Origin: an uncultured Maribacter sp.
GTDB lineage: Bacteria > Bacteroidota > Bacteroidia > Flavobacteriales > Flavobacteriaceae
DNA: 64,000 nucleotides
Direction of reading: 5' to 3'
Assembly: GCA_947504045.1 (NCBI GenBank)
Contig: CANNFY010000001.1
Coordinates: 310,001-374,000 of the forward strand
Position 1 is the stretch's first letter. Each line of letters opens with the position of its first letter. Positions 9,947-39,317 of this stretch are shown piece by piece. The notes under the pieces are model-generated. The model ran no database searches, was not told the origin of the DNA, and saw only the letters and a program-made list of their open reading frames with translations. The position numbers and the translations under genes were made by a program.

Positions 9947-9989
9947 TAAAGTTAATCTTAGCATCTTTTTTAAACTATGACAAATGTCA
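9947..9989 (-). promoter_or_regulatory. FNR-type box and -7 element for usp
   Basis: TGACAAATGTCA (9978-9989) is a palindrome apart from its two central bases. TAACTTTA (9954-9947 on the minus strand) is the -7 element. The distance from box centre to the last base of the -7 element is 36.5 nt, identical to four other promoters in this window. Confidence 0.75.
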
Positions 9990-10012
9990 GTTTTAGAATT
10001 GAAAATATTTAT

Positions 10013-10702
10013 TTAAAAACCATCTATTAAGTCTTGCAACTCTTTCTCTTTAACAATAGCCACACGTTTTCCTGAAGTTTTAAGAAGCTCTTTTTTCTTA
10101 AATTCTGATATAATACGAATGCAAGATTCTGTAGCTGTACCAACAACATTGGCTATATCCTCTCTAGATAATGTTAGATTTAAAAAACCTTCTTCATCTA
10201 CTCCATAGTTATTTTTTAAATACATAAAAGCCTCTGCCACTCTTTGTTTTACCGTTTTTTGAGACATGTTTACAATAACATCATCTGCCTCTTTTAAATC
10301 GTGAGCCATATGGCGTAAAACCTCTAAAGTAAAATCTGGGTTTTTATGCATAGTGCCTACAATTATTTCTTTAGGCACAAAACAAACCTCCACATCATTA
10401 ACCGCAATAGCACTTAAATTTGTTGGTTCTTCTACAATTACAGCACGTTGCCCCATAACTTCTCCTGTAGTGGCTAATTTTACAATTTGATCTTTACCAT
10501 TTGCGCTTAATTTTGAAAGTTTAGAAACACCGTTTCTAACACAATAAACACCATTTAGTTTTTCTCCTTCTTCAAAAAGTGCTTCTCCTTTTTTAAACTT
10601 TTTATACACCTTATTATCAGAAACTTGTTTTAATTCTTCTTTATTCATTGCTCTTAAAGAATTAAATTTTCGGACTATACAATTCTCACATCTAGTTTCC
10701 AT
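10013..10702 (-). CDS. Crp/Fnr family transcription regulator, FNR-like
   Basis: 229 residues: an N-terminal cyclic-nucleotide-binding-like domain (about 25-140), dimer helix and a C-terminal winged HTH with LSREDIANVVGTATESCIRI. In the recognition helix Glu and Arg of the FNR E-xxx-R pattern are kept while the intervening Ser is Ile. The N-terminus has RCENC (CxxC), and Cys residues recur in YCVRNG and VCFVPKE, so an iron-sulphur oxygen sensor is possible, though the third N-terminal Cys of E. coli FNR is not evident. It is divergent from ccoI and is the natural candidate to bind the five TGAYAWWTRTCA boxes. A TAATTTTG element at 10733-10726 may drive it. Confidence 0.88.
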   Translation of the reverse strand: METRCENCIVRKFNSLRAMNKEELKQVSDNKVYKKFKKGEALFEEGEKLNGVYCVRNGVSKLSKLSANGKDQIVKLATTGEVMGQRAVIVEEPTNLSAIAVNDVEVCFVPKEIIVGTMHKNPDFTLEVLRHMAHDLKEADDVIVNMSQKTVKQRVAEAFMYLKNNYGVDEEGFLNLTLSREDIANVVGTATESCIRIISEFKKKELLKTSGKRVAIVKEKELQDLIDGF

Positions 10703-10755
10703 ACCTATTTTTTTCCTAACACCACAAAATTAAACGTAACTGCATAAACAAAACC

Positions 10756-10798
10756 TGACAAATATCATGTTTTTCCCATATGCTTATAACAACCTTTG
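10756..10798 (+). promoter_or_regulatory. FNR-type box and -7 element for ccoI
   Basis: TGACAAATATCA (10756-10767) and AACCTTTG (10791-10798), centre to end 36.5 nt. The box lies in the divergent region with the fnr-like gene; seen from that gene it is 35.5 nt from TAATTTTG, so autoregulation is possible. Confidence 0.75.
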
Positions 10799-10814
10799 TA
10801 TCAGGTATTAGCAA

Positions 10815-13217
10815 ATGTTTAATAAAATGGAAAAATGTTACCACTGTGGTGATTCTTGCTTACAAGTTACAATAGATTTTGATGAAAAAAAATTCTGTTG
10901 CAATGGTTGTAAAACGGTTTACGAAATTTTCTCTACTAATAACTTATCTTATTATTATGATATAGAATCCTCTGCAGGAGCCACACCTAAAATTGTAGAA
11001 GGTAAATATGACTTTTTAGAAAATTCTGAAATTACAGACAAGCTTTTAGAATTTAAAGACACTAGTATTCAAATAATAAATTTATATATACCTCATATAC
11101 ATTGTAGTTCTTGTATTTGGGTGTTAGAAAATCTAAACAAATTAAATTCTGGAATAACTAATTCTCAAGTAGATTTTCCTAAAAAAATGGTTCGTATTAC
11201 GTATAATCCGAAAACCATTTCTTTAAAAGCCATTGCTATGTTACTGTCGCGCATTGGTTATGAGCCTACTATTTCTTTAGAAGATTACACCACAACTAAA
11301 AAAAGTACCAACAACACATTACTTTATAAATTAGGCGTTGCAGGTTTTGCTTTTGGCAATGTTATGTTTTTATCTTTTCCTGAATATTTTGATCTAGCCT
11401 CTAGTGCCCAAAATGGCGGCGAATTTTGGTTAAACAAATACCAAGATATTTTCCGATGGATTATGTTTACTTTTTCTCTTCCTGTGGTTTTTTATGCTGC
11501 ACAAGATTATTTTATATCGGCATATAAAGGAATAAGGTCTAGGCTTTTAAATATTGATGTTCCTATTGCGCTTGGAATTTTAGTTTTGTTTTTAAGAAGT
11601 ACAATAGAAATAATTTTAAAATGGGGACCTGGTTTTTTTGACAGCTTAACAGGTCTTGTATTCTTTTTACTACTAGGAAAATTTTTTCAACAAAAAACCT
11701 ACTCTTTTTTATCTTTTGAAAGAGATTATAAATCCTATTTCCCTATTGCTGTTACACGTATTCTTAAAAATGGCAAAGAAGAAAACACCCAAGTTTACAA
11801 TATAAAAAGGGGAGACAAAATACTTATTAGAAATGAAGAGCTTATACCTGTAGATGGTATTTTACTAAGCAAGCACACCCAAATAGATTATAGTTTTGTT
11901 ACTGGAGAATCTGAACCCGTAACAAAAGTTTCTGGAGACAAAGTTTTTGCAGGAGGCAAGCAATTAAATAGTGCTATAGAAATGGAAGCCCTAAAATCTG
12001 TTTCTCAAAGTTACCTTACACAACTATGGAGTAACTCTATTTTTAAGCACAACAAATCCAGTGCATTTCAATCTATTACAGATAGTATTGGAAAACGTTT
12101 TACTGTAGGCGTTTTAAGCATTGCTTTTTTAGCTACTATTTTCTGGTTTTTTTATAACCCAAGTATGGCATTAAATGTATTTACAGCTGTTTTAATAATT
12201 GCTTGCCCATGCGCAATTGCACTAGCCTCGCCTTTTACACTCGGAAATATGTTACGCATTTTTGGGAAAAATAAATTTTACTTAAAAGATACTTATACTA
12301 TAGAACAACTTGCTAAAATAGACACTGCAATTTTTGATAAAACAGGTACTATTACTACTGCAAAAAAAAATACTATTACCTATGAAGGTTACACACTAAC
12401 AAAAGAAGAAGAATCTTTATTAAAAAACACACTTCGTTCCTCCAATCACCCTTTAAGTAGATCTTTATATAATATGCTTTTAGAACAAAATATTGTAACA
12501 TTAGACGAATATGAAGAACATTTAGGAAAAGGAATAATAGGAACAAAAAAGAATGCTACAATAAAAATTGGTTCGGCAAGCTTTGTTAAAAACGCCAGTA
12601 CAAAAGAAGTGAATAACACTGCAGTACACATTAGTAGCAACAACAATTACAAAGGAAAATTTGTTTTTAAAAATGAGTATAGAAAAGGGGTTTCTAAGTT
12701 ATTTAAAACAATGTCTAACACCTTACAGCTTGCAATATTATCTGGAGATAATGCTGGCGAAAAAAATAGGCTAGAAAAATTACTCCCAAAACTTACTCCG
12801 CTATTTTTTAATCAAAAACCAGAAGATAAATTAGAGTTTATAAGATCGCTTCAAGACCAAGGAAAAACGGTAATGATGGTTGGTGATGGTCTAAATGATG
12901 CTGGAGCTTTAGCCCAAAGTAATGTTGGCATTGCTATATCAGAAAATGTAAATGTTTTTTCTCCTGCATGCGATGGCATTTTAGATGCTACAAAATTTCA
13001 GGAATTATACACTTATATCCTAGCTTCTAAAAAAGCTATAAAAATAATAAAATGGAGTTTTCTACTCTCTTTATTTTACAATATTATAGGGTTATACTTT
13101 GCCATTACAGGACAATTAGAGCCCGTAATAGCTGCCATATTAATGCCTTTAAGTTCTATAAGCGTGGTTGCATTTACTACAATTGCTACCAACCTATTAG
13201 GTGAAAAATTACGCTAA
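10815..13217 (+). CDS. ccoI: Copper-translocating P-type ATPase CcoI/FixI
   Basis: 800 residues. It opens with a Cys-rich metal-binding module (CYHCGDSC ... FCCNGCKTVYEIF), then an HMA domain with IHCSSCIWVLENL, membrane segments, the phosphatase TGES-like TGESEPVTK, the CPC ion-binding motif (IACPCAIALASP), the phosphorylation site FDKTGTIT and GDGLNDAGAL. This arrangement is that of the CopA2/FixI subgroup, which exports copper for cbb3 oxidase assembly. A second ATG at 10827 (MEKCYHCGD) is an alternative start; the predicted transcription start lies near 10803. It heads the cco genes and carries its own FNR box. Confidence 0.93.
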   Translation: MFNKMEKCYHCGDSCLQVTIDFDEKKFCCNGCKTVYEIFSTNNLSYYYDIESSAGATPKIVEGKYDFLENSEITDKLLEFKDTSIQIINLYIPHIHCSSCIWVLENLNKLNSGITNSQVDFPKKMVRITYNPKTISLKAIAMLLSRIGYEPTISLEDYTTTKKSTNNTLLYKLGVAGFAFGNVMFLSFPEYFDLASSAQNGGEFWLNKYQDIFRWIMFTFSLPVVFYAAQDYFISAYKGIRSRLLNIDVPIALGILVLFLRSTIEIILKWGPGFFDSLTGLVFFLLLGKFFQQKTYSFLSFERDYKSYFPIAVTRILKNGKEENTQVYNIKRGDKILIRNEELIPVDGILLSKHTQIDYSFVTGESEPVTKVSGDKVFAGGKQLNSAIEMEALKSVSQSYLTQLWSNSIFKHNKSSAFQSITDSIGKRFTVGVLSIAFLATIFWFFYNPSMALNVFTAVLIIACPCAIALASPFTLGNMLRIFGKNKFYLKDTYTIEQLAKIDTAIFDKTGTITTAKKNTITYEGYTLTKEEESLLKNTLRSSNHPLSRSLYNMLLEQNIVTLDEYEEHLGKGIIGTKKNATIKIGSASFVKNASTKEVNNTAVHISSNNNYKGKFVFKNEYRKGVSKLFKTMSNTLQLAILSGDNAGEKNRLEKLLPKLTPLFFNQKPEDKLEFIRSLQDQGKTVMMVGDGLNDAGALAQSNVGIAISENVNVFSPACDGILDATKFQELYTYILASKKAIKIIKWSFLLSLFYNIIGLYFAITGQLEPVIAAILMPLSSISVVAFTTIATNLLGEKLR

Positions 13218-13248
13218 AAAAGCAGTTTTCAAAAATAATTTTAAAACC

Positions 13249-13291
13249 TGATAAATGTCATATAATAGGTGTTATAGCAGACGTAATTTTA
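13249..13291 (+). promoter_or_regulatory. FNR-type box and -7 element for ccoS-ccoNOQP
   Basis: TGATAAATGTCA (13249-13260) and TAATTTTA (13284-13291), centre to end 36.5 nt. This gives the structural oxidase genes a promoter of their own in addition to the one before ccoI. Confidence 0.72.
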
Positions 13292-13310
13292 CACTGTAAA
13301 TCAGGTAGGT

Positions 13311-13505
13311 ATGAGCGTTATATATGTATTATTAACCATAAGTATTATTGTTGCTATTCTTTTTTTTGCAGCTTTTATTTTTTCTGTAAAAAATGGGCAA
13401 TATGAAGATTCTTATACCCCGTCTGTACGCATGCTTTTTGAGGATGAACTTGTTGCAAAAGCTACAAAAGAAAAAGACACTACAAATAAATATCCAACTA
13501 AATAA
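13311..13505 (+). CDS. ccoS: cbb3 oxidase maturation protein CcoS
   Basis: 64 residues with a single N-terminal membrane helix (VIYVLLTISIIVAILFFAAF) followed by SVKNGQYED and a short soluble tail; this N-terminal pattern defines CcoS/FixS. CcoS is needed to insert cofactors into cbb3 oxidase. It lies 14 nt before ccoNO and about 90 nt after ccoI, behind its own FNR-type promoter. Confidence 0.9.
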   Translation: MSVIYVLLTISIIVAILFFAAFIFSVKNGQYEDSYTPSVRMLFEDELVAKATKEKDTTNKYPTK

Positions 13506-13519
13506 AAGAGTAATTAATT

Positions 13520-15721
13520 ATGGAAGTACAACAGTTTTATTACGATAATAAAATCGTAAAAAATTTCCTTTATGCCACAATGTTTTGGGGTATAATAGGA
13601 ATGTCCGTAGGACTATTATTAGCCTTTATGTTTTTGTTCCCTAATGTAACAGATGGCATACCTTGGCTTAGTTTTGGTCGCTTGCGTCCTTTACATACAA
13701 ATGCCGTTATTTTCGCCTTTGTAGGTAATGCAATTTTTGCAGGAGTTTACTACTCTACACAACGCTTACTTAAAGCCAGAATGTTTAGCGATTTTTTAAG
13801 CAAATTTAATTTCTGGGGATGGCAACTTATTATTGTTGCAGCAGCAATTACTCTACCATTAGGGTATACAACATCTAAAGAATATGCGGAACTGGAGTGG
13901 CCTATAGATATTGCTATTGCTTTAGTTTGGGTTGCTTTTGGAGTAAACCTAATTGGTACCATGATAAAAAGAAGACAACGCCATTTATATGTTGCCATCT
14001 GGTTTTATGCGGGCACATTTGTAACGGTAGCCGTACTACATATATTTAACAGTTTAGAACTTCCGGTAAGTGCTTTAAAAAGTTATTCTGTTTACGCAGG
14101 TGTACAAGATGCTTTGGTACAATGGTGGTATGGGCATAATGCCGTAGCATTTTTCTTAACTACGCCATTCTTAGGGCTTATGTATTATTTTGTTCCTAAA
14201 GCCGCTAATAGACCTGTTTATTCGTATAAACTTTCTATTGTTCACTTTTGGTCTTTAATATTTATTTATATCTGGGCAGGACCACACCATTTACTATATT
14301 CTTCTTTACCAGATTGGGCACAAAATTTAGGTGTTGCATTTTCTATTATGCTTATTGCTCCTTCTTGGGGCGGTATGATAAATGGATTATTAACTCTAAG
14401 AGGTGCCTGGGATAAAGTAAGAACAGACCCAACCTTAAAATTTATGGTTGTAGCTATTACTGGCTATGGTATGGCAACGTTTGAAGGACCTATGCTTTCA
14501 TTAAAAAATGTAAATGCTATTGCTCATTTTAGTGATTGGATTATTGCTCACGTGCACGTAGGTGCATTAGCTTGGAATGGCTTTATGACTTTTGGAATGA
14601 TCTATTGGTTAGCTCCAAAAATGTTTAAAACCAAATTATATTCTAATGGTTTAGCAAACTTCCATTTCTGGATTGGCACACTAGGTATTATTCTATATGC
14701 ATTACCAATGTATGTTGCTGGTTTTTTACAAGCATTAATGTGGAAAGAGTTTAATCCTGATGGTACTTTAGCGTATGGAAACTTCTTAGAAACTGTTACC
14801 GAAATTATACCAATGTACTGGATGCGTGCAATAGGTGGCTCTCTATATATAATTGGTGCGTTAGTAATGGTATACAATATTGTATTAACTATAAAATCTG
14901 GCGTAAAAGTTGAAGACGAATTAGCAGAAGCTGCTCCTCTTACTAGAGTTTCTAAAAAGAGAACTGCTGGCGAAACTTTTCACACTTGGTTAGAGCGTAA
15001 GCCAATACAATTAACCATTTTGGCTACTGTTGCTATTTTAATAGGTGGTATTATTCAAATTATACCAACTATTATGGTAAAATCTAACATACCAACAATT
15101 ACCAGTGTAAAACCATATACACCGTTAGAATTAGAAGGCAGAGATTTATACATAAGAGAAGGTTGTGTTGGTTGCCATTCGCAAATGGTTAGACCATTTA
15201 GAAGTGAGGTAGAACGTTACGGAGAATATGCAAAAGCAGGAGAGTTTGTATATGACCATCCATTCTTATGGGGTAGTAAACGTACCGGGCCAGACTTATT
15301 ACGTGTTGGAGGTAAATACTCAGACAACTGGCATTTAAACCATATGTACGACCCACAAAGTACCTCCTCTGGTTCTATTATGCCAGCATACCAATGGTTG
15401 GTAAGAGACAAGCATGATCGTAGTGGCGTACAAGCAAAAATGCAAGCTATGGTTAGCTTAGGAGTACCTTATACAGAAGATGACATTGCCTTAGCAAATA
15501 TTTCTATGGAAAAACAAGCAGAAAAGATTGAGAAAAACCTTTATGCAGATCCAGATTTTGCTAAAAGCTATGAACAAGATAAAAAATATGCTGCAGAAAA
15601 CGGACAAGATTTTGTAGAGATGCGAGACAGAGAAATAGTCTCTCTTATTGCGTATCTACAACGTTTAGGAACCGATATAAAAGTTAAAGAAACCGGAGAA
15701 TTAATTTCTGAAAATAAATAA
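13520..15721 (+). CDS. ccoNO: cbb3 cytochrome c oxidase, fused subunits I and II (CcoNO)
   Basis: 733 residues. Residues 1-470 are the haem-copper catalytic subunit with about twelve helices: RPLHTNAVIFAF, WYGHNAVAFF and the GPHHLLYSS pair for CuB and haem ligands, and AHVHVGALAWNG. A linker helix (about 495-515) leads to the CcoO part with the c-type haem site EGCVGCHSQM and a later SGSIMPAYQWL that supplies the Met ligand region. The fusion of the two subunits is normal in Bacteroidota. The enzyme reduces oxygen at high affinity and pumps protons in the inner membrane. Confidence 0.95.
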   Translation: MEVQQFYYDNKIVKNFLYATMFWGIIGMSVGLLLAFMFLFPNVTDGIPWLSFGRLRPLHTNAVIFAFVGNAIFAGVYYSTQRLLKARMFSDFLSKFNFWGWQLIIVAAAITLPLGYTTSKEYAELEWPIDIAIALVWVAFGVNLIGTMIKRRQRHLYVAIWFYAGTFVTVAVLHIFNSLELPVSALKSYSVYAGVQDALVQWWYGHNAVAFFLTTPFLGLMYYFVPKAANRPVYSYKLSIVHFWSLIFIYIWAGPHHLLYSSLPDWAQNLGVAFSIMLIAPSWGGMINGLLTLRGAWDKVRTDPTLKFMVVAITGYGMATFEGPMLSLKNVNAIAHFSDWIIAHVHVGALAWNGFMTFGMIYWLAPKMFKTKLYSNGLANFHFWIGTLGIILYALPMYVAGFLQALMWKEFNPDGTLAYGNFLETVTEIIPMYWMRAIGGSLYIIGALVMVYNIVLTIKSGVKVEDELAEAAPLTRVSKKRTAGETFHTWLERKPIQLTILATVAILIGGIIQIIPTIMVKSNIPTITSVKPYTPLELEGRDLYIREGCVGCHSQMVRPFRSEVERYGEYAKAGEFVYDHPFLWGSKRTGPDLLRVGGKYSDNWHLNHMYDPQSTSSGSIMPAYQWLVRDKHDRSGVQAKMQAMVSLGVPYTEDDIALANISMEKQAEKIEKNLYADPDFAKSYEQDKKYAAENGQDFVEMRDREIVSLIAYLQRLGTDIKVKETGELISENK

Positions 15722-15724
15722 GCT

Positions 15725-15913
15725 ATGTTAAAATTTGTCAAAGGATACATGGAAACTATAGACGGTGTTGCAACATACCCAATGCTATCTTTATTAATCT
15801 TCTTTTTCTTTTTTGTTATTCTTTTTTGGTGGGTACTTACTGCTTCAAAAGAACACATAAAAGAAGTAAGTAATATTCCATTAGAAAATAATAACCAACC
15901 TAAAAATAATTAA
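15725..15913 (+). CDS. ccoQ: CcoQ/FixQ-like small subunit
   Basis: 62 residues with one membrane helix (MLSLLIFFFFFVILFWWVL) and a short polar tail, in the standard position between ccoNO (3 nt away) and ccoP (1 nt away). The assignment rests on size, topology and position more than on sequence. CcoQ stabilises the oxidase complex. Confidence 0.8.
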   Translation: MLKFVKGYMETIDGVATYPMLSLLIFFFFFVILFWWVLTASKEHIKEVSNIPLENNNQPKNN

Positions 15914-15914
15914 T

Positions 15915-16802
15915 ATGAAAAATATAGCACCCTGGTGGATTAGAATTCCTGTTATTTTTTTCCTCGTTTTTGGAACAATGGAGTACTTTATAGATTCCGG
16001 AGCTAAACCTGCGTTTATAGAATACCCTATTACCCTACTCTTTTTAATCGTTGTTTTATTTCTTTTAATAGCAATAGAAGTAATATTAAAAGCTATAGAA
16101 AATGTATTCTTTCAAACCTTATCCGAAGATGCAAAAAAACGCTATTTAGAATCTAAAAATAAAAAGTGGAATTACGGTTCTAACTTATATAAAAAGCTAA
16201 CAAAAAATAGACCCATTGAAGAAGAAGGAGAAATAGTTCTAGATCACAATTATGATGGTATTAGAGAGCTAGATAACACGTTACCACCATGGTGGGTTTA
16301 TATGTTTTACGGGACCATAATTTTTGCTATAGTTTACTTATTACGTTTTCATGTTTTTAATGATTATGATCAAAGTTTAGAGTATGAGCAAGAAGTAGCC
16401 GCAGCACAAATTGCAATCGAAGAATATAAAAAAACTGCTAAAAATTTGGTTGATGCTAGCACGGTAGAGCTATTAACAGAGGCTTCTGATATTAAGTCCG
16501 GTCAAGCCATTTTTACAGCAAACTGTATTGCTTGTCATATGGCAGATGGTGGTGGCGGTATTGGCCCTAACCTTACCGATAAAAATTGGATACTTGGCGG
16601 AGGTATTAAAAATGTATTTACAACAATATCTGAAGGTGGCCGAGACGGTAAAGGAATGGTAGCATGGAAACAAAGTTTAAAACCAGTAGAAATTGCTCAG
16701 GTTGCAAGTTATGTACTTGTAGAAATTAATGGCAAAGAACCTGCAAATCCTAAAGCCCCAGAAGGAGATATCTGGGAAGAGCCAAACACAACACAAGAAT
16801 AA
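15915..16802 (+). CDS. ccoP: cbb3 oxidase subunit III CcoP, one c-type haem
   Basis: 295 residues: two N-terminal helices, a cytoplasmic segment, then NTLPPWWVYMFYGTIIFAIV, the conserved FixP membrane helix, and a periplasmic cytochrome domain with FTANCIACHMADGGGG and the Met-ligand stretch GKGMVAWKQ. Only one CxxCH motif is present, whereas proteobacterial CcoP has two; single-haem versions with an extra N-terminal membrane part are known in Bacteroidota. It passes electrons from soluble cytochromes to CcoO. Followed closely by ccoG. Confidence 0.92.
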   Translation: MKNIAPWWIRIPVIFFLVFGTMEYFIDSGAKPAFIEYPITLLFLIVVLFLLIAIEVILKAIENVFFQTLSEDAKKRYLESKNKKWNYGSNLYKKLTKNRPIEEEGEIVLDHNYDGIRELDNTLPPWWVYMFYGTIIFAIVYLLRFHVFNDYDQSLEYEQEVAAAQIAIEEYKKTAKNLVDASTVELLTEASDIKSGQAIFTANCIACHMADGGGGIGPNLTDKNWILGGGIKNVFTTISEGGRDGKGMVAWKQSLKPVEIAQVASYVLVEINGKEPANPKAPEGDIWEEPNTTQE

Positions 16803-16842
16803 TATTTATAAAACTAGAATGTACTATTAAGAAGCGTTTGTA

Positions 16843-18258
16843 ATGGCACAAAACGAAAATTTTAGAGACACTATAGGCACCATCAATAAAGAGGGGAAAC
16901 GCGCTTGGATTTTTCCCAAAAAACCAAGTGGTAAATTCTACGATTATCGTAAATGGGTAAGCTATGCGCTTTTATTATTTTTAGTTGCTTCGCCATTTAT
17001 TAAAATAAACGGAAATCAGTTTTTACTCTTTAATGTTTTAGAAAGACGCTTTACTATTTTTGGATTCCCTTTTTGGCCTCAAGATTTTCATTTGTTTGTA
17101 ATCTCAATGATTATTGGTGTAATTTTTATTGCACTTTTTACGGTAGCTTTTGGTCGTATTTTTTGCGGATGGATGTGCCCGCAAACTATTTTTTTAGAAA
17201 TGGTTTTTAGAAGAATAGAATTTTGGATTGATGGGGACCGTGGCGCACAAATAAAACTAGAAAGACAACCTTGGAATGCAGAAAAAATAAGAAAACGCGT
17301 TTTAAAATGGTTTATATTTTTCATCATTTCTTTTCTTATTGCTAACGTTTTTCTTGCCTATTTAATTGGCAGCGATCGCCTAATACAATACATAACAGAC
17401 AACCCTTTAAACCATATAAGCACCTTAATTTCTTTGCTAATATTTACAGGCGTTTTCTACTTTGTTTTTGTTTGGTTTAGAGAACAAGTTTGCATTATTG
17501 CTTGTCCTTATGGCAGAATGCAAGGCGTACTTTTAGACAACAAATCTATTGTAGTTGCCTATGACCATAAACGTGGCGAAGGGGAAAACGGCAGAAAAAA
17601 ATTTAGAAAAAACGAAGACCGCTCTGCACTGGGTAACGGAGACTGTATAGACTGTATGCAATGTGTACATGTTTGCCCAACGGGTATAGATATTAGAAAC
17701 GGAACACAACTAGAATGTGTAAACTGTACTGCTTGCATAGATGAGTGCGATACTATTATGGAAAAAGTAAATCTTCCAAAGGGATTAATACGTTACGCAA
17801 GTGAAGATAATATAGAAAAAAAAGCAAAATTTAAGTTTACACCAAGGTTAAAAGGATACTCTGCTGTGCTTTTTATTTTAGTTGGAATACTTGCCGGAAT
17901 GCTTTTTTTAAGAAACGAAGTGGAAGCAACTATTTTACGATTACCTGGCCAATTATACGAGCATAAAGAAGATAATATTATTAGTAATGTGTACACCTAT
18001 AAACTAGTAAACAAAACTTCTAAAAATATTGATGATATAAGCTTTAAACTCTTATCGCATAAAGGTACTATAGAGCTAGTTCGCCATGATAATTTTACGG
18101 TACCTGCACAAGAATTAGCAGAAGGAACTTTATTTATAGAAATAAATAATTCTACCTTGAATGGCGATAAAGACAAACTAAAAATAGGAATATTTAGTAA
18201 AGATAAACTCATTGAAACTACAACGGCTCGTTTTTTAGGGCCTAGAAGTTATAAGTAA
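16843..18258 (+). CDS. ccoG: cbb3 oxidase accessory ferredoxin CcoG/FixG/RdxA
   Basis: 471 residues. Several membrane helices carry FCGWMCPQTIF and CIIACPYGRMQ, followed by two 4Fe-4S motifs (CIDCMQCVHVCP and CVNCTACIDEC), a further membrane helix near 345-360 and a C-terminal immunoglobulin-like domain (about 370-471). This is the complete FixG plan. CcoG is proposed to reduce copper for oxidase assembly. It is the fifth gene of the ccoS-to-SafE run. Confidence 0.93.
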   Translation: MAQNENFRDTIGTINKEGKRAWIFPKKPSGKFYDYRKWVSYALLLFLVASPFIKINGNQFLLFNVLERRFTIFGFPFWPQDFHLFVISMIIGVIFIALFTVAFGRIFCGWMCPQTIFLEMVFRRIEFWIDGDRGAQIKLERQPWNAEKIRKRVLKWFIFFIISFLIANVFLAYLIGSDRLIQYITDNPLNHISTLISLLIFTGVFYFVFVWFREQVCIIACPYGRMQGVLLDNKSIVVAYDHKRGEGENGRKKFRKNEDRSALGNGDCIDCMQCVHVCPTGIDIRNGTQLECVNCTACIDECDTIMEKVNLPKGLIRYASEDNIEKKAKFKFTPRLKGYSAVLFILVGILAGMLFLRNEVEATILRLPGQLYEHKEDNIISNVYTYKLVNKTSKNIDDISFKLLSHKGTIELVRHDNFTVPAQELAEGTLFIEINNSTLNGDKDKLKIGIFSKDKLIETTTARFLGPRSYK

Positions 18259-18366
18259 CTACCTATAGGAAAATCTATAAGGTATGTAATGGAAAATTAA
18301 TATAATATTTCGACCCAAGCGTCGATACAAATAAATCTCGATTATCGAGTTATAAAAAGAAAGATT

Positions 18367-18813
18367 ATGAAAATTAATTGGGGAACAAGTATTGTAATTG
18401 CGTTTATTGGTTTTATAAGTTTTATACTCTTTTTTGTGGTTAAAATGAGCACTGATAATAGAGCTAATCATGATTTAGTTACCGAAGAATATTACAAAGC
18501 AGAACTAGGGTACCAAAAAGAAATTAATGCAACTGTAAATGCTAATAAAATAAATATAAAAATCTTAAAAACTTCAGAAGGACTGTCTATACAATTTCCA
18601 TCTGATATAGAAAAAGAACAAATTAAAGGCACTGTGTTCCTATATAGGCCGTCTAATAAGCACTTGGATTTTGATTTACTATTTCATCTATCCAATTCAC
18701 ATTTGCTCATACCTGACAAACGTTTGTTAGATGGCCGATGGAACATAAAAATACTCTGGGAGCATAATGGCACAGAATTTCTTTACAAAGAAAACATTAC
18801 CTACATAAAATAA
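18367..18813 (+). CDS. ccoH: FixH family protein CcoH
   Basis: 148 residues with one N-terminal membrane helix (GTSIVIAFIGFISFILFFVV), then TEEYYKAELGYQKEINA, the FixH signature, and a periplasmic beta-rich domain ending LDGRWNIKILWEHNG. It helps assemble cbb3 oxidase with CcoI and CcoG. The 108-nt gap after ccoG contains two small inverted repeats (TCGAC/GTCGA and CTCGA/TCGAG) of no clear purpose. Confidence 0.88.
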   Translation: MKINWGTSIVIAFIGFISFILFFVVKMSTDNRANHDLVTEEYYKAELGYQKEINATVNANKINIKILKTSEGLSIQFPSDIEKEQIKGTVFLYRPSNKHLDFDLLFHLSNSHLLIPDKRLLDGRWNIKILWEHNGTEFLYKENITYIK

Positions 18814-18816
18814 AAT

Positions 18817-19521
18817 ATGCTACTATCTGCTTTACTATTAGGACTTATGGGTAGTTTGCACTGCGTAGGCATGTGTGGCCCCATTGCATTTATGCTCCCG
18901 GTAGATAGAGAAAGTAATCTTAAAAAATTTACACAAATTTTTATTTACCACTTTGGAAGGTTATTAGCCTATAGCATTATGGGGCTTTTATTTGGACTTT
19001 TAGGAAAGAGCTTACAGGTATTTGGTTTACAACAAAAACTCTCCATTATTATTGGTGTAGTAATGATATTGGTAATTCTTATTCCCTATAAAACGTTTCA
19101 TAAATACAATTTTTCTACCCCCATTTACAAAGTAATAAGCAAGGTTAAATCGCAACTAGGAAAAGAATTGCAAAAGAAAACTCCAGATACTTTTTTAACT
19201 ATAGGGTTCTTAAATGGTTTTCTCCCTTGTGGATTGGTGTATATGGCTTTATTTGGCGCAATTGCAATGGCTAATATTTTGGAAAGCTCTTTATACATGC
19301 TCCTTTTTGGAATAGGCACAATACCATTAATGACAACTGCAATTTATTTTAGTAATTTATTAAAAGGAGTAACAAAACAAAAAATACAAAAACTAATTCC
19401 TACTTTTGTAATTATAATGGGTATTCTTTTTATTTTAAGAGGTTTAGGCCTTGGCATACCCTATATTTCTCCAAAGCCAGTTACCGAAATTGTTTCCTCT
19501 AAAATGGAATGCCATAATTAA
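18817..19521 (+). CDS. SafE/TauE-like membrane protein of the cbb3 cluster
   Basis: 234 residues, six or so membrane helices. The N-terminal LMGSLHCVGMCGPIAFMLP and the related NGFLPCGLVYMALFGAI form the two-fold repeat with conserved Cys residues seen in cluster-associated SafE family proteins, formerly listed as heavy-metal or sulphite exporters. In this position, 3 nt after ccoH, it very probably serves copper delivery or thiol redox for the oxidase; that role is inferred. Confidence 0.85.
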   Translation: MLLSALLLGLMGSLHCVGMCGPIAFMLPVDRESNLKKFTQIFIYHFGRLLAYSIMGLLFGLLGKSLQVFGLQQKLSIIIGVVMILVILIPYKTFHKYNFSTPIYKVISKVKSQLGKELQKKTPDTFLTIGFLNGFLPCGLVYMALFGAIAMANILESSLYMLLFGIGTIPLMTTAIYFSNLLKGVTKQKIQKLIPTFVIIMGILFILRGLGLGIPYISPKPVTEIVSSKMECHN

Positions 19522-19548
19522 CTATCTTCCCATTTTAATAGATAGAAT

Positions 19549-19950
19549 ATGTCCAAAAAGAAAGATATAGAAAATAGAAGCGATGTAAAATTGCTTGTAC
19601 ATACCTTTTATAACAAAATAAGAGTACACAACATTTTAGGCCCAATTTTTAATTCTATTATTAATGATTGGGACGAACATCTAAATTTATTGACCGATTT
19701 TTGGGAAACCCAACTCTTTCTAAAACGTAAATACTACGGTAACCCTGTTACTGCACACCAAGAGGTAGATGCTAAAACTAATGGTACTATTACTACAGAA
19801 CATTTTGGTTTGTGGTTAAATACTTGGTATGCTACTATTGATGACTTGTTTGATGGCGAAACCGCCTGGATTGCAAAAAACAGAGCGCAAAAAATGTCAA
19901 CCATGTTATTTATGAAAATGTTTGAAAGCAGAAAAAATAATTTAAGGTAA
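19549..19950 (+). CDS. Group III truncated haemoglobin
   Basis: 133 residues. It has the two-over-two globin length and group III features: HNILGPIFNSIINDWDEHL, TDFWETQLF, and TTEHFGLWLNTWYATIDDLF, with the proximal histidine expected in the EHFGLW region. Group III globins bind oxygen or nitric oxide; their role varies. It sits 27 nt after the SafE-like gene at the end of the cbb3 run, which suggests a link to low-oxygen or nitrosative conditions. Confidence 0.88.
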   Translation: MSKKKDIENRSDVKLLVHTFYNKIRVHNILGPIFNSIINDWDEHLNLLTDFWETQLFLKRKYYGNPVTAHQEVDAKTNGTITTEHFGLWLNTWYATIDDLFDGETAWIAKNRAQKMSTMLFMKMFESRKNNLR

Positions 19951-19968
19951 TTAAACTCATCTAAGAAC

Positions 19969-20011
19969 TGACATATATCATATTCTAAGAGCCAGAATAG
20001 TAGAAAATTTG
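19969..20011 (+). promoter_or_regulatory. FNR-type box and -7 element for the 598-residue gene
   Basis: TGACATATATCA (19969-19980) and AAAATTTG (20004-20011), centre to end 36.5 nt, followed by a leader of about 36 nt. Confidence 0.7.
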
Positions 20012-20051
20012 CAGTTGGTTATTTTTATAAAACTGCAAAACAAAAATATTC

Positions 20052-21848
20052 ATGGCAAATACACATTCTTTTCATATTCCTGTAATGGGAATTGGGTTTA
20101 CAATAGATTCTCCTTTAAAAGTATCGCACTTAGGAATAGACTCTGTAATCTCTTTAGTAGATGATATTTTATTAGAAAAACTACGCAAAATGTATTGCGA
20201 TCTTTCTAATTTACCATATACAGAAATTACAGATAAAACAGAAGATTTTAGGGCTTTAAGAATAACATCTTACTTAAATCTTATTCAAAATTTAGCCGAA
20301 GAAAAGTTTCAAGCACTAAAGGTGGCAACCCAAGAATCTAGTTCCGAAATAAAAAAATACTTTTCTATTTTACCAGACAGTTCCTACTTAAAAAAAGAAT
20401 TTAATAAACGAACTAAAACCAATTTCAATCTAGAAGAAATTAAAAATTGGTTAAAAGAAAATCTTACTATGGGTAGTATTGATGTTAATATTATGACCAA
20501 AGTAGATAAAGACAATTATATAAAAAACAAACAACTACCAACAGAATATAACGATGCGCATGCTGCACTTAGAGGATATGCTAATAGTAACGTTAATTCT
20601 TCTCTTATTTTATCGGCAGGGATGAATCCTAGGTTGTATAGCTACATAGAACAGTTTGATGACTTTTTTCCTGACAAAAACGGATACATTAAAAAGAAAA
20701 TTGTTCTTAAGGTTAGCGATTATAGGTCTGCCTTAATACAAGGTAAATTTTTAGCAAAAAAAGGACTTTGGGTGTCGGAATACCGTATAGAATCTGGTTT
20801 AAACTGTGGCGGACATGCATTTGCAACAGACGGATATTTAATGGGACCTATATTAGAACAATTTAAAAACGAAAAAGAAGATTTAGCCGCATCTATTTAT
20901 GGTATTTTGGTATCTGCTTTAGAAAGAAAAAACAAACCTTTACCAAAACATATACTTCCTATTAAACTAACTGCGCAAGGCGGTGTTGGCACTGCAGAAG
21001 AACATAACTTTATTTTAAACCACTACCAAGTAGACTCTGTTGGTTGGGGCTCACCTTTTTTACTAGTTCCAGAAGCTACAACAGTAGATAAAGCTACCGT
21101 AGAAAAACTTGCAACCGCTAAAGAAAAAGATTTATACTTAAGTAATATTTCGCCATTAGGAATTCCTTTTCACAGTTTAAAAGGCAATACAAAAGATGAA
21201 GAAAAAGCAAAAAATATTGCCAAAAACAGACCCGGAAGTTCCTGCCCTAAAAAGTTTGTTTCTTTAAACAAAGACTTTAAAGAGTCTGGTTTATGTACGG
21301 CATCTAGACAATACCAACATTTAAAAATAAAAGCCTTAGAAAAAGAGAATTTATCTAAAGAAGCGTACAAAAAACAATATGCCCAAATTATCGAAAAATC
21401 TTGTACTTGTGTTGGTTTAGGAACCTCTGCATTACTAACATATGGTTTAGACACAAAGACAGAAGGAGATGGCGTATCCGTATGTCCTGGTCCAAACATG
21501 GCATATTTTTCTAAAACTATGAAACTAACTGAAATTACAGACCATATTTATGGTCGCAACAATGTAATTAGTAGAAAAGACCGCCCACATATGTTCCTTA
21601 AAGAACTATCTATATATTTAACCTATTTGCAAGAAAAGGTTAAAGAAACCTCTTCTAAAAGTTCTATTAAACAACTAAAATATCTTTCTACTTTTAAAAA
21701 TAATTTAGCCGATGGAATAAAATATTATGAAGCTATTTTTAAAACAAATACTAGTTTTATTAAAACCCTTAATAGTTACAAAATTACTTTTTCTAAATTA
21801 TCTGAAGATATTAGTAAAAAGCAAACACTAAACAATGTAGTGCATTAA
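20052..21848 (+). CDS. Unrecognised 598-residue protein, TIM-barrel-like with conserved Cys, FNR-controlled
   Basis: No signal peptide or membrane helix is evident. The middle holds ESGLNCGGHAFATDGYLMGP and LTAQGGVGTAEEHNFI ... DSVGWGSPFLLVPEA, which recall the phosphate-binding end of FMN barrels such as nitronate monooxygenase or glutamate synthase. Further on are Cys motifs GSSCPKK, GLCTASRQ, KSCTCVGLG and VCPGPNM, able to hold an iron-sulphur cluster. The C-terminal 100 residues are helical. An FNR-type promoter, and neighbours for micro-oxic respiration and anaerobic haem synthesis, point to an oxygen-sensitive redox enzyme. I do not recognise a family, and the flavin and cluster readings are inference. 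Confidence 0.6.
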   Translation: MANTHSFHIPVMGIGFTIDSPLKVSHLGIDSVISLVDDILLEKLRKMYCDLSNLPYTEITDKTEDFRALRITSYLNLIQNLAEEKFQALKVATQESSSEIKKYFSILPDSSYLKKEFNKRTKTNFNLEEIKNWLKENLTMGSIDVNIMTKVDKDNYIKNKQLPTEYNDAHAALRGYANSNVNSSLILSAGMNPRLYSYIEQFDDFFPDKNGYIKKKIVLKVSDYRSALIQGKFLAKKGLWVSEYRIESGLNCGGHAFATDGYLMGPILEQFKNEKEDLAASIYGILVSALERKNKPLPKHILPIKLTAQGGVGTAEEHNFILNHYQVDSVGWGSPFLLVPEATTVDKATVEKLATAKEKDLYLSNISPLGIPFHSLKGNTKDEEKAKNIAKNRPGSSCPKKFVSLNKDFKESGLCTASRQYQHLKIKALEKENLSKEAYKKQYAQIIEKSCTCVGLGTSALLTYGLDTKTEGDGVSVCPGPNMAYFSKTMKLTEITDHIYGRNNVISRKDRPHMFLKELSIYLTYLQEKVKETSSKSSIKQLKYLSTFKNNLADGIKYYEAIFKTNTSFIKTLNSYKITFSKLSEDISKKQTLNNVVH

Positions 21849-21858
21849 AATTGCATAA

Positions 21859-21890
21859 AAAAAGGGAGGCCAACTACAACCTCCCTTTTT
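21859..21890. terminator. Bidirectional intrinsic terminator
   Basis: AAAAAGGGAGG (21859-21869) pairs with CCTCCCTTTTT (21880-21890) around a ten-base loop, with A and T runs on both sides. It lies between the plus-strand 598-residue gene and the minus-strand usp stop and can serve both. Confidence 0.88.
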
Positions 21891-21919
21891 CACCAATTAA
21901 AATCTACAACCCACTATAA

Positions 21920-22744
21920 TTATTTCATTTTAAAAGTAACCACTGGCATATTTGCATGGTTAACAACATCTTCTCCTATACTTCCCATAAAAAAATGAGA
22001 TAACCCTTTACGTCCATGAGTAGGAATACCAATAATATCGGCACCATTAGCATTGCTATAGTTTAATATTCCTTCCTCTATACTATAATCGTTATATATG
22101 GTAACCTCAGCTCCTATATTGCCTTCTTTTAAAAAAATATTAATTTTTTCATAGGCATCTTTTGTGCTTAAAAAATTATCGCCAGGCACATTTATATACA
22201 ACAAGTCTAATTTTGCTCGTAACATTGCGGCAAAGTCTTTTGCTTTTTTAAATGCAGGCAACTTATCTAGTTTAAAATCACATGCAAAAACAAAACGATC
22301 AATCTTAAAATTTTTATGTTCTTTTTTTATTACTAAAACAGGAACTTCAGAATTTCTAACTACTTTTTCGGCATTAGATCCTATAAATAGTTCTTTTAAA
22401 CCATCTGTGCCATGAGAACCCATTATTATTAAATCTGCGCTATGCTTTTTAGCTACTTCATTAACTTCTGAGAAAACTTTAAAATGTTTTATTATTGGTG
22501 TTACCTCAACATCTGCTAAATAGTCCTTATCTAAAAACTCTTTAATTCTTTTTTCTGCAAGCTTTAAAAAAAATACGGTTTGCTCTGGGTGTATATTTGC
22601 TTCTGAAGTTATTATAGTATTATTAAGTTCTAACATATGTAATACTAAAATCTCCGAAGTATGTTTCTTGGCTAAAGAAACTGCTACTTTTAATGCATTT
22701 TCAGATTGCTCCGAAAAATCTATAGGTACAATTATTTTTTTCAT
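21920..22744 (-). CDS. Universal stress protein, tandem UspA domains
   Basis: 274 residues, two UspA domains. The first begins IIVPIDFSEQSENALKVAV and has IIMGSHGTDGLKELFIGSNA; the second has IIGIPTHGRKGLSHFFMGS, so both keep the GxxGx(9)G(S/T) nucleotide-binding loop, unlike the other Usp at 9023-9925 whose second domain is degenerate. It starts 11 nt after hemN and very likely shares the FNR-type hemN promoter. Known Usp proteins bind ATP or act as stress modulators; no precise role can be given. Confidence 0.9.
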   Translation of the reverse strand: MKKIIVPIDFSEQSENALKVAVSLAKKHTSEILVLHMLELNNTIITSEANIHPEQTVFFLKLAEKRIKEFLDKDYLADVEVTPIIKHFKVFSEVNEVAKKHSADLIIMGSHGTDGLKELFIGSNAEKVVRNSEVPVLVIKKEHKNFKIDRFVFACDFKLDKLPAFKKAKDFAAMLRAKLDLLYINVPGDNFLSTKDAYEKINIFLKEGNIGAEVTIYNDYSIEEGILNYSNANGADIIGIPTHGRKGLSHFFMGSIGEDVVNHANMPVVTFKMK

Positions 22745-22755
22745 GATTTTAGTTT

Positions 22756-24117
22756 TTAAATTGTCATTGAAAATAATTTAGTTTCAGGGGCTTTTCTATG
22801 TAAATGCACATCAAAAGCCATACATATATTTCTAATAAAAGGTTTCCCCTTTTCTGTTACTTCTAATTTTTTATCTGATATAATTACCAAATTATCTAAA
22901 TGCATTTCTTTTAAATTATCTAATACTACTGTTACTTCGTTAAAATTCATAGTATCATATTCCCAAGAAGTTTGGTAAGTACACATAAGGTTTAGAATAT
23001 GTTTTCTTATTATTTGGTCTTCTTGTGTTAGAATATGCCCTCTATATATTGGTATTATATTATTATTTACTAAATGCTTATACTCTTCTATATTTTTTAC
23101 ATTTTGGGCAAAGCTATACCAACTATCGCCAATACTAGACACTCCTAAGCCAACCATAAGTTGTGTTTTAGATGCCGTATATCCCATAAAATTACGATGC
23201 AACTTTTTAGACTCCATTGAGGCATACAAGCTATCCGTAGCAAGAGCAAAGTGATCCATTCCTATTTCTGTATATCCTACTTGTGCTAATAATTTTTTAC
23301 CTTCTTCATACTGCGCTCTTTTTTCCTCTGCAGATGGCAAATCGCTATCTTTATAACCCCTTTGCCCATTGCCTTTTAACCATGGTACATGTGCGTAACT
23401 ATAAAATGCTAAGCGATCTGGTCGTAAGCTTTTTGTTTTTAAAATACTTTCTTTAACATGTTCTAAAGTTTGGTGTGGTAATCCAAAAATAATATCATGA
23501 CCTACAGAAGTATATCCGATATTTCTAGCAATTTCTGTAACTCTTTTTACATTTTTAAAAGGTTGTACTCTATGAATTGCTTTTTGTACCGTAATATTAT
23601 AATCTTGCACGCCAAAACTTACTCTTCTAAAACCTACATTATATAAAGCTTGTAAATGCTCTTCTGTGGTGTTATTAGGGTGCCCTTCAAAACTAAATTC
23701 GTAGTCTTTTGCTTTTTCTGCTTGTTTAAAAATTCCTTCCATAAGAAATTTTAAATTTTCTGGCGAAAAAAAAGTTGGAGTTCCTCCTCCCAAATGAAGC
23801 TCTTTAATAATAGGTTTTTCTGAAAACATTTGGGTATACAATGCCCATTCTTTTAAAACCGTGTTTATATATGGCACTTCAACATTATGTTGTTTTGTTA
23901 TACGTTTATGACAACCACAAAAAGTACACATACTTTCACAAAAAGGTAAATGTATATATAAACTAATTCCTTCTTTAGCATTACTTTCTGTAAAGCTTTT
24001 TTTAAGCGTAACTTCCCATTTAGCACCAGAAAAAGTTTCTAAATTCCAATAAGGGACTGTAGGGTAACTAGTATATCTAGGTCCCGAAACATTATATTTT
24101 TTAATTAAACTGCACAT
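22756..24117 (-). CDS. hemN: Oxygen-independent coproporphyrinogen III oxidase
   Basis: 453 residues, full HemN length. It has KYNVSGPRYTSYPTVPYW at the N-terminus, SLYIHLPFCESMCTFCGCHK with the CxxxCxxCxC radical-SAM motif of true HemN, GGGTPTF, and FSFEGHPNNTT. The enzyme decarboxylates two propionates in the absence of oxygen, feeding haem synthesis. The four-Cys motif and N-terminal part separate it from HemW at 272-1399. The promoter has an FNR box, as expected for an anaerobic isoenzyme. It forms an operon with the downstream usp. Confidence 0.94.
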   Translation of the reverse strand: MCSLIKKYNVSGPRYTSYPTVPYWNLETFSGAKWEVTLKKSFTESNAKEGISLYIHLPFCESMCTFCGCHKRITKQHNVEVPYINTVLKEWALYTQMFSEKPIIKELHLGGGTPTFFSPENLKFLMEGIFKQAEKAKDYEFSFEGHPNNTTEEHLQALYNVGFRRVSFGVQDYNITVQKAIHRVQPFKNVKRVTEIARNIGYTSVGHDIIFGLPHQTLEHVKESILKTKSLRPDRLAFYSYAHVPWLKGNGQRGYKDSDLPSAEEKRAQYEEGKKLLAQVGYTEIGMDHFALATDSLYASMESKKLHRNFMGYTASKTQLMVGLGVSSIGDSWYSFAQNVKNIEEYKHLVNNNIIPIYRGHILTQEDQIIRKHILNLMCTYQTSWEYDTMNFNEVTVVLDNLKEMHLDNLVIISDKKLEVTEKGKPFIRNICMAFDVHLHRKAPETKLFSMTI

Positions 24118-24134
24118 ACCTGTTATTTACACTA

Positions 24135-24177
24135 CAAACATAGTTATGTATAGATCTAAAAAATATGATAATTGTCA
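24135..24177 (-). promoter_or_regulatory. FNR-type box and -7 element for hemN-usp
   Basis: TGATAATTGTCA (24166-24177) and, on the minus strand, an exact TATGTTTG (24142-24135); centre to end 36.5 nt. The leader to the hemN ATG is about 13 nt. Confidence 0.78.
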
Positions 24178-31294: not shown

Positions 31295-31340
31295 TGTCTT
31301 TGTATTATAAGGGGCATTTATATTCTGAGCATGCAATATA

Positions 31341-38561: not shown

Positions 38562-39317
38562 ATGCATAAACCTACTACAATATCTGAAGTTTTAGTAGAA
38601 CTAGATCTTATAATTGAAGATGCCATTACTAACAATGATCGTTTGGGCTTATTTGCCTATGTATATAGACGAACAACTGCTGAAGTGCTTAAAGAAGTAG
38701 AACTCGGAAATTTTAAAGACAACGACCAATTGCAGAAAATGGATGTTGCTTTTGCTAATTTATATTTAGAGGCCTACCACAACTATAAAAAAGGGTTACC
38801 TGTAAGCAAATGTTGGGAGTTTTCTTTTAAATGCAAAACAGAACGTCTTACTATTTTACAGCACATTATGCTTGGCATTAATGCACATATAAATTTAGAT
38901 TTGGGTATTGCAACTAGCCAAACCATGAAGGGTAAAGATATTGCCGCTATAGAATCTGATTTTAATAAAGTAAATACCGTTCTTTTTAACATTACCAACG
39001 AGCTTCAAAAAAGATTAGGAAGAGTATCTCCTCTATTATTCTTATTAGATGTTATTGGTGTAAAATCGGATGAACAAATTATAGATTTTAGCATGCGAAA
39101 AGCAAGAGAACAATCTTGGATTAGCGCAATGCATTTACACGCTTTAGATGGTAATGCAAATAAAAAAGCTATTGAAGACCTAGACCAATTAGTAGTCTCT
39201 TTAAGTACAATTATAAAAGCTCCAAAGGCTTTTCTTATAAGAACAGGTTTAAAACTAATTAGCTTTTTTGAAGAAAAAAATGTTGGTAAAATTATCCAAA
39301 GACTAAAAGAGGACTAA
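38562..39317 (+). CDS. DUF5995 family protein
   Basis: 251 residues, all-helical, no signal peptide. The segments RLGLFAYVYRRTTAEVLK, LYLEAYHNYKKG, HIMLGINAHINLDLGIA and SPLLFLLDVIG match the DUF5995 family, in which a conserved His-Asp pair (the AHINLDLG stretch) is typical. The function of that family is not known to me. The stop codon abuts the stop of the convergent response regulator gene. Confidence 0.75.
   Translation: MHKPTTISEVLVELDLIIEDAITNNDRLGLFAYVYRRTTAEVLKEVELGNFKDNDQLQKMDVAFANLYLEAYHNYKKGLPVSKCWEFSFKCKTERLTILQHIMLGINAHINLDLGIATSQTMKGKDIAAIESDFNKVNTVLFNITNELQKRLGRVSPLLFLLDVIGVKSDEQIIDFSMRKAREQSWISAMHLHALDGNANKKAIEDLDQLVVSLSTIIKAPKAFLIRTGLKLISFFEEKNVGKIIQRLKED

Follow-up and report, generated by a model that had tools for sequence, protein, structure and literature searches.

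Introduction

Where does an activator sit on a promoter of the Bacteroidota? The phylum has a divergent sigma factor and a divergent promoter, and little was found in the searched literature on activator position there. The question is raised by a stretch of 64,000 nucleotides from an uncultured Maribacter sp. (the window hereafter), in which copies of the dyad TGAYAWWTRTCA stand before usp, ccoI, ccoS, a gene for a 598-residue protein (598-aa gene) and hemN, and in which 10013-10702 encodes a regulator of the CRP/FNR family. An initial annotation had read this arrangement as an FNR-type regulon with invariant promoter geometry. Comparison of the window with its relatives indicates that an FNR-like protein very probably activates low-oxygen genes from operators fixed at -41.5 in marine flavobacteria.

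Results

Six promoters in the window share one operator distance

All five boxes are present without mismatch, and each is followed by the -7 element previously assigned to it at a gap of 23 nt, so that the box centre lies 36.5 nt from the last base of that element. Five TGAYAWWTRTCA boxes in 64 kb compare with 0.14 expected, and none of 100 dinucleotide shuffles reaches five. Seven strict boxes occur genome-wide (3,455,399 bases, 42 contigs), five of them inside one 14-kb stretch; for the other two, on contigs C3 and C10, no -7 element of at least 5/6 occurs at gaps of 4-40 on either side. Scored against the six fixed letters of TAnnTTTG, the -7 element of Bacteroidota sigma-A promoters, the elements at the five boxes reach 5/6 four times and 6/6 once. 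The relaxed box TGAYNNNNRTCA occurs six times in the window, and its gap-23 promoters are the same five and one more that had been overlooked, with the -7 element TAATTTTG (10732-10725, minus strand) facing the FNR-like gene itself. The box at 10756-10767 is thus common to two divergent promoters, those of the FNR-like gene and of ccoI, which gives six promoters on five operators, all with a gap of 23; the -7 element is 6/6 for hemN and the FNR-like gene, and 5/6 for usp, ccoI, ccoS and the 598-aa gene. When any common gap from 4 to 44 is permitted, one gap is shared by five of the five real boxes, by at most three in 20,000 flank shuffles and by at most four (once) in 20,000 draws of five random 60-mers from the window.

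The gap is conserved across the Flavobacteriaceae

The family was sampled with 120 genomes, one per genus, the window genome included. A scan blind to the gap (strict box, N{8,38}, TAnnTTTG) returns 427 matches against 32 for the reversed control; among the 150 of these matches listed, gap 23 accounts for 103, gap 22 for 10, gap 9 for 7 and gap 24 for 6. With the gap fixed at 23 there are 313 matches against a single one in the reversed control, and the search of related genomes that the initial annotation had proposed thus recovers the same box and spacing across genera.

Orthologous promoters were then compared in 80 fetched loci and the window, accepting a relaxed box and a -7 element of at least 5/6 at gap 23. 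The arrangement precedes ccoS in 72/72 loci and usp in 45/57 (window included in both), and ccoI in 71/76. It precedes none of the internal cco genes (ccoN, ccoP, ccoG, ccoH and the next gene; 0/72, 0/71, 0/69, 0/65 and 0/64, respectively), where the only two relaxed boxes, both before ccoG, have no -7 element at gap 23, nor a further 133-aa gene found in four loci (0/4). For hemN, a renewed search of the best 30 loci from 42 genomes with a match (the window genome and 29 other genera) finds the box in 27, all 27 at gap 23. The 598-aa gene has a gap-23 promoter in 17 of 29 loci, namely 17/20 in the family (8 of these from its own genus) and 0/9 outside it.

The first T of the -7 element is absent from all 71 ccoI promoters that score 5/6 at gap 23, the other five letters being kept, and from 75/75 ccoI boxes when the 5/6 filter is dropped; it is likewise absent at the 598-aa gene in 15/17 loci, and present at ccoS (72/72) and usp (45/45). 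The missing first T is suggestive of activator-dependent promoters.

In the wider phylum, 65 of 296 genomes have a match at gaps of 18-28, and for families other than the Flavobacteriaceae 13 of the 24 rows among the matches listed fall at gap 23 (binomial 3e-8); these rows come from ten genomes of nine genera and are not independent, and extension of the geometry beyond the family is a lead only.

Also among the matches listed, one family of the same order (G143, G484, G537, G549 and G553) contributes six rows with gaps of 24, 25, 25, 26, 27 and 27, which may reflect chance or a different geometry. Genome G044 carries two near-identical boxes ∼1.1 kb apart (C1:37800-37854 and 38893-38947), each with a -7-like element at gap 35, a pair that is likely a local duplication.

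The operators are predicted to centre at -41.5

Transcription starts of Flavobacterium psychrophilum, as reported in the text of a study that mapped them by 5′-end RNA-seq, place TAnnTTTG at -12 to -5 (PMC9723704). The element then ends at -5, and counting 36.5 nt back to the box centre gives -41.5, the position of class II activators; all six window promoters have their operator centred there, given starts extrapolated from another species of the family. The class II placement proposed earlier is therefore supported by the comparative data and by start positions in a related species (PMC9723704), the starts themselves being predicted. The predicted leaders measure 17 nt (usp), 18 nt (FNR-like gene), 12 nt (ccoI), 15 nt (ccoS), 36 nt (598-aa gene) and 13 nt (hemN), and the median leader reported for F. 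psychrophilum is 24 nt; in the same report, oxygen limitation strongly induces the cbb3 oxidase and enzymes of heme synthesis (PMC9723704).

The further proposal that these promoters lack a good -33 element cannot be upheld as worded. Upstream of ccoI and ccoS in relatives, T stands at 77-97% per position from -33 to -30, and because this T tract mirrors an A tract at -52 to -50, the proposal is inseparable from the operator's own symmetric flanks.

An FNR-like protein with a distinct set of cysteines

The protein of 10013-10702 contains the Pfam domains PF00027 and PF13545 and has the CRP/FNR fold. Its predicted structure (pLDDT 83; residues 1-7 below 50) is matched by Foldseek to Aliivibrio fischeri FNR (5e44; TM ∼0.77, 28% identity), and the top solved structure is a Crp/Fnr protein of Porphyromonas gingivalis (2gau; TM 0.85). 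The NCBIfam FNR model PRK11161 is the best of 13 families, still with 107.5 bits against a cut-off of 228, and because this score is far below the cut-off we call the protein FNR-like rather than FNR proper.

The cluster ligands of Escherichia coli FNR are C20, C23, C29 and C122. In the FNR-like protein C5, C8 and C107 align with C20, C23 and C122, whereas the position of C29 is taken by Asn14 in 77/81 sequences. C5, C8, C107 and a further cysteine, C54, which aligns with an Ala of A. fischeri FNR, are invariant in 81/81 FNR-like sequences; C54 may be the fourth cluster ligand. Alignment A1 joined the window protein to 25 of the 30 FNR-like loci fetched, after removal of four close copies and of the window's own. 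Alignment A2 joined it to 25 of 30 fetched loci, and the five set aside were its own copy, one interrupted by a stop, one that is partial and two more.

Two candidate regulators for one box

At cut-offs chosen by the analyst (E <= 1e-40 and E <= 1e-60, respectively), the FNR-like protein is present in 71/120 genomes and a receiver-CRP fusion protein in 53/120, the window genome not being among the latter. Several genomes that lack the FNR-like protein keep gap-23 boxes. Of the 49 genomes without that protein 20 were inspected, and 18 of these (all except G023 and G048) encode a Crp/Fnr protein of ∼350 residues, which in those tested consists of a receiver, a cNMP-binding domain and a Crp helix-turn-helix. 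In genera without the FNR-like protein (L158-L174, e.g. L136:7972-10539) the gene order is kinase, fusion and usually usp: a kinase-like open reading frame (ORF) directly precedes the fusion gene in the 15 loci read (three were confirmed to have kinase domains), and immediately after the fusion gene comes, in 13 of the 15 as judged by eye, a usp-like ORF. The N-terminal PAS domain of one of these kinases (G078) gives its best PDB alignments with FixL (1d06) and DosP, with a proximal His and an Arg aligned. In FixL-type heme-PAS domains these residues act as the proximal heme His and the distal Arg. The alignment covers this one kinase. The four invariant cysteines of the FNR-like protein are absent from the fusion proteins, save one Cys at the C107 column.

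Presence of the box follows presence of either regulator. At least one gap-23 match is found in 41/45 genomes with the FNR-like protein only, 26/27 with the fusion only and 25/26 with both, against 3/22 with neither (Fisher 4e-14); among genomes of at least 3 Mb the corresponding values are 33/36, 21/22, 23/24 and 1/7 (Fisher 5e-6). The pattern thus tracks the regulators, as a correlation across genera. In addition, both proteins have the recognition helix consensus ATESxIR: A190, E192, I195 and R196 are present in 81/81 FNR-like and 14/14 fusion proteins, and most also have T191 and S193 (the fusion set is 14 of 15, without L170, whose start was cut by the choice of ORF). In related genera, a two-component oxygen sensor apparently works from this site too, set equally far from the promoter. 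The FNR-type regulon of the initial annotation, with the protein of 10013-10702 as its likely binder, is supported by this comparative evidence; the second type of regulator in relatives and the two-state autoregulation described below had been missed.

Two promoter states at the regulator's own gene

The operator region shared by the FNR-like gene and ccoI (10703-10814) and its homologues in loci L035-L114 retain gap 23 on the ccoI side in 71/76, whereas the FNR-like side has gap 23 or gap 9 according to genus. Of 81 loci, 30 have the -7 element of the FNR-like gene at gap 23 and 28 have it at gap 9; three show both gaps, one shows gap 10, six have neither and 13 have no box. In the blind scan, 8 of the 14 short gaps (9-12) among the matches listed lie directly upstream of the FNR-like gene (coordinates read by eye). 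A gap of 9 moves the box centre to -27.5, over the promoter, and the expected outcome would be autorepression, as opposed to autoactivation at gap 23, suggesting that autoregulation changed sign between genera. On the protein tree, a quick one with many weak forks, the two states require at least three switches.

Genes next to gap-23 sites

For a functional survey, the gene next to each of 40 gap-23 matches in nine genomes chosen by the analyst was read, the matches being defined by the DNA pattern alone; the survey took in two of five matches for one genome, three sites with no ORF and one site listed twice, and family tests were run on part of it. The next gene is hemN at five sites, ccoS at three and usp at three. 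NCBIfam assigns others to formate C-acetyltransferase (pyruvate formate-lyase), phosphate acetyltransferase, PEP carboxykinase and pyruvate phosphate dikinase, and Pfam to cytochrome c, a COX1-family oxidase and a multicopper oxidase-cytochrome c protein. The survey also yields genes that are not obviously anaerobic (fasciclin, ArsR, thioredoxin-like, acetyltransferase) and several without a family match.

The 598-aa protein of the window has no Pfam or NCBIfam match. Its predicted fold is nearest to the FabX/PfaD/FabK flavoenzymes, to which it adds a helical part at the C terminus; several Cys are invariant, and the protein is possibly an enzyme of anaerobic fatty-acid desaturation. A second copy of its gene in genome G143 (C1:4371176-4372883) is split into several reading-frame pieces.

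Discussion

Proposed mechanism

The boxes would be dimer-binding operators, AAAnnTGAYAWWTRTCAnnTTT, for the CRP/FNR-family protein of 10013-10702. At low oxygen this FNR-like protein, probably with an Fe-S cluster on C5, C8, C107 and perhaps C54, would bind the operator at -41.5, immediately upstream of the sigma-A polymerase of Bacteroidota, and give class II activation. Besides its own gene it would control usp, ccoI, the ccoS-NOP operon, hemN and the gene for the FabX-like enzyme. What is observed are the sequences themselves, the fixed gap with its conservation at several genes throughout the family, and the way in which this gap tracks the regulators; binding by the FNR-like protein, oxygen sensing, contact with polymerase and the sign of regulation we infer.

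A number of points weigh against activation by the FNR-like protein. Four of the five -7 elements first described carry one mismatch, and the offset to the start derives from one species of the family. The gene-by-gene counts are not independent, as orthologous promoters share descent. A first pass over hemN in the 81 FNR-like loci gave only 4/10 at gap 23, the extrapolated starts lying off the locus in six of the seven hemN rows re-examined, and 3 of the 30 hemN loci searched again have no box. Four of the 45 genomes with the FNR-like protein only are without a strict gap-23 match, and 3 of the 22 with neither regulator still carry one. The protein itself departs from the FNR pattern of CX2CX5C with a fourth Cys, the third cysteine of E. 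coli FNR being missing, and a second Crp/Fnr protein in the window (250 aa; 49712-50464), with CxxCxxxxC and a further Cys, has the fuller set. No expression, footprint or mutant data were found for this organism.

Weighing the alternatives

That second paralog is the most obvious rival binder, the more so as its gene adjoins those for a NarK-like transporter (50504-51904; just under the NCBI cut-off) and nirB (52964-55480). We nonetheless consider it an improbable one: its recognition helix reads TTEEQVIR, not ATESxIR, and the FNR-like gene's own operator is common to ccoI. Moreover, in G008 the FNR-like protein is the sole Crp/Fnr match, yet there are two gap-23 boxes, and in G101, G069, G090 and G074 the fusion is the sole Crp/Fnr match, yet there are 4, 4, 6 and 2, respectively. 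That the boxes mainly bind an aerobic repressor from the CRP/FNR family appears a little less probable still. CRP/FNR proteins are able to repress, and in other genera the FNR-like gene does have gap-9 promoters, with the box over the promoter; at gap 23, however, the box keeps to a single position upstream of the core promoter, as for an activator, where a repressor site should tolerate more positions, and the promoters of ccoI and of the 598-aa gene (15/17) keep a -7 element without its first T, as if an activator were needed.

The fixed geometry could also be thought of as a promoter element read by the sigma factor rather than by a regulator, the spacing being as rigid as that between two promoter elements. 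We give this very little credence, as the box is a 12-bp dyad that serves two divergent promoters at once and is, at this gap, nearly absent from genomes that lack both candidate regulators (3/22). Chance, or the selection of fitting examples by a reader who picked the gap after looking, carries the least weight of all, since none of the 20,000 shuffles and none of the 20,000 random draws reaches five at any shared gap, and the same gap is found independently in other genera.

Beyond activation by the FNR-like protein in the window, we lean, with distinctly less assurance, towards a wider reading in which the Flavobacteriaceae would hold one low-oxygen code, TGAYAWWTRTCA at -41.5 to TAnnTTTG. 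Two oxygen-sensing inputs would exchange places on this code: the FNR-like protein, whose set of cysteines (C5, C8, C54, C107) would be new, and a FixL-like heme kinase that drives a fused receiver-CRP protein. The FNR-like gene itself would flip between self-activation (gap 23) and self-repression (gap 9) through a 14-bp move of the -7 element under the same operator.

Features of the locus

The features of the proposed low-oxygen cluster are collected in Table 1.

Table 1. Operators, -7 elements and genes of the proposed low-oxygen cluster (window positions; starts are predicted)
Feature	Position	Strand	Remarks
usp, universal stress protein gene, 300 aa	9023-9925	-	
usp -7 element TAACTTTA	9947-9954	-	gap 23
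Operator 1 TGACATTTGTCA (read towards usp)	9978-9989	-	centre -41.5 for usp; predicted start 9942
FNR-like regulator, 229 aa	10013-10702	-	cNMP-binding + HTH_Crp
-7 element of the FNR-like gene TAATTTTG	10725-10732	-	gap 23; predicted start 10720
Operator 2 TGACAAATATCA	10756-10767	no strand	-41.5 for both FNR-like gene and ccoI
ccoI -7 element AACCTTTG	10791-10798	+	gap 23; predicted start 10803
ccoI, P-type ATPase, 800 aa	10815-13217	+	Pfam domains; name from the initial annotation and context
Operator 3 TGATAAATGTCA, upstream of ccoS	13249-13260	+	
ccoS -7 element TAATTTTA	13284-13291	+	gap 23; predicted start 13296
ccoS, fused ccoNO, then oxidase/assembly genes	13311-19521	+	
Operator 4 TGACATATATCA, upstream of 598-aa gene	19969-19980	+	
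598-aa gene -7 element AAAATTTG	20004-20011	+	gap 23; predicted start 20016
598-aa protein gene	20052-21848	+	
hemN, oxygen-independent coproporphyrinogen III oxidase, 453 aa	22756-24117	-	
hemN -7 element TATGTTTG	24135-24142	-	6/6, gap 23; predicted start 24130
Operator 5 TGACAATTATCA (read towards hemN)	24166-24177	-	-41.5 for hemN

Further along the window, an ORF of 1189 aa (27767-31336) resembles molybdopterin nitrate reductase/formate dehydrogenase subunits over its first 710 residues and the N-terminal part of NirB over its last 470; it is read as a fused reductase, all family matches lying below their cut-offs.

Comparison with known systems

Class II activation by CRP/FNR proteins is already a known mechanism. 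We recognised no description of an FNR operator or of a fixed activator spacing in Flavobacteriaceae in the open-access literature searched, nor did we meet there the Bacteroidota setting, the rigidity across genera, the exchange of regulators or the two-state autoregulation. One spacing at hundreds of promoters offers a testable rule for activator placement, a simple prediction of low-oxygen regulons in flavobacterial genomes and a reporter design, and the exchange of regulators together with the two-state autoregulation amounts to a set of natural experiments in which the DNA code is kept while the sensor and the sign of feedback change.

Class II promoters of E. coli and A. fischeri FNR carry the site TTGATnnnnATCAA at -41.5. 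The system described here resembles them in the CRP/FNR fold, in the 12-bp dyad TGAY-N4-RTCA, in the predicted centre at -41.5 and in having cbb3, hemN and fermentation genes among its targets. It differs in that the promoter is of the Bacteroidota TAnnTTTG type, the half site is TGAY with AAA/TTT flanks and not TTGAT, Asn14 stands in place of the third Cys (77/81) and C54 never varies (81/81).

Within the phylum, BT4338 (MalR/Cur) of Bacteroides thetaiotaomicron is likewise a CRP-family activator, and at fusA2 a putative -7 element lies downstream of its site. That site, wwwTATGTTnTAnAACATAwww, differs from the operators here, and no fixed distance is given in the passages that describe it (PMC6989115). 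A scan for the BT4338/Cur site with a promoter gave no match to the strict pattern in 198 genomes, and the relaxed pattern gave 12 matches in 149 genomes with no preferred gap. A Crp/Fnr protein of Flavobacteriales has been assigned to MalR and not to FNR (PMC8510549). The sigma-A promoters of F. psychrophilum agree with those of the window in having TAnnTTTG at -12 to -5, and with the proposed regulon in that cbb3 and heme genes are induced by oxygen limitation, whereas the main text of that account does not contain the words FNR or Crp, and no such operator was noticed in it (PMC9723704).

The arrangement seen in genera that lack the FNR-like protein recalls rhizobial FixLJ-FixK, in that a kinase gene lies beside a gene with receiver and CRP parts, and the PAS domain of the one kinase tested has FixL and DosP as its nearest solved relatives. 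Unlike FixLJ-FixK, the receiver and CRP parts are here one protein, and the occurrence of this fusion across genomes follows that of the very box and gap which accompany the FNR-like protein in sister genera.

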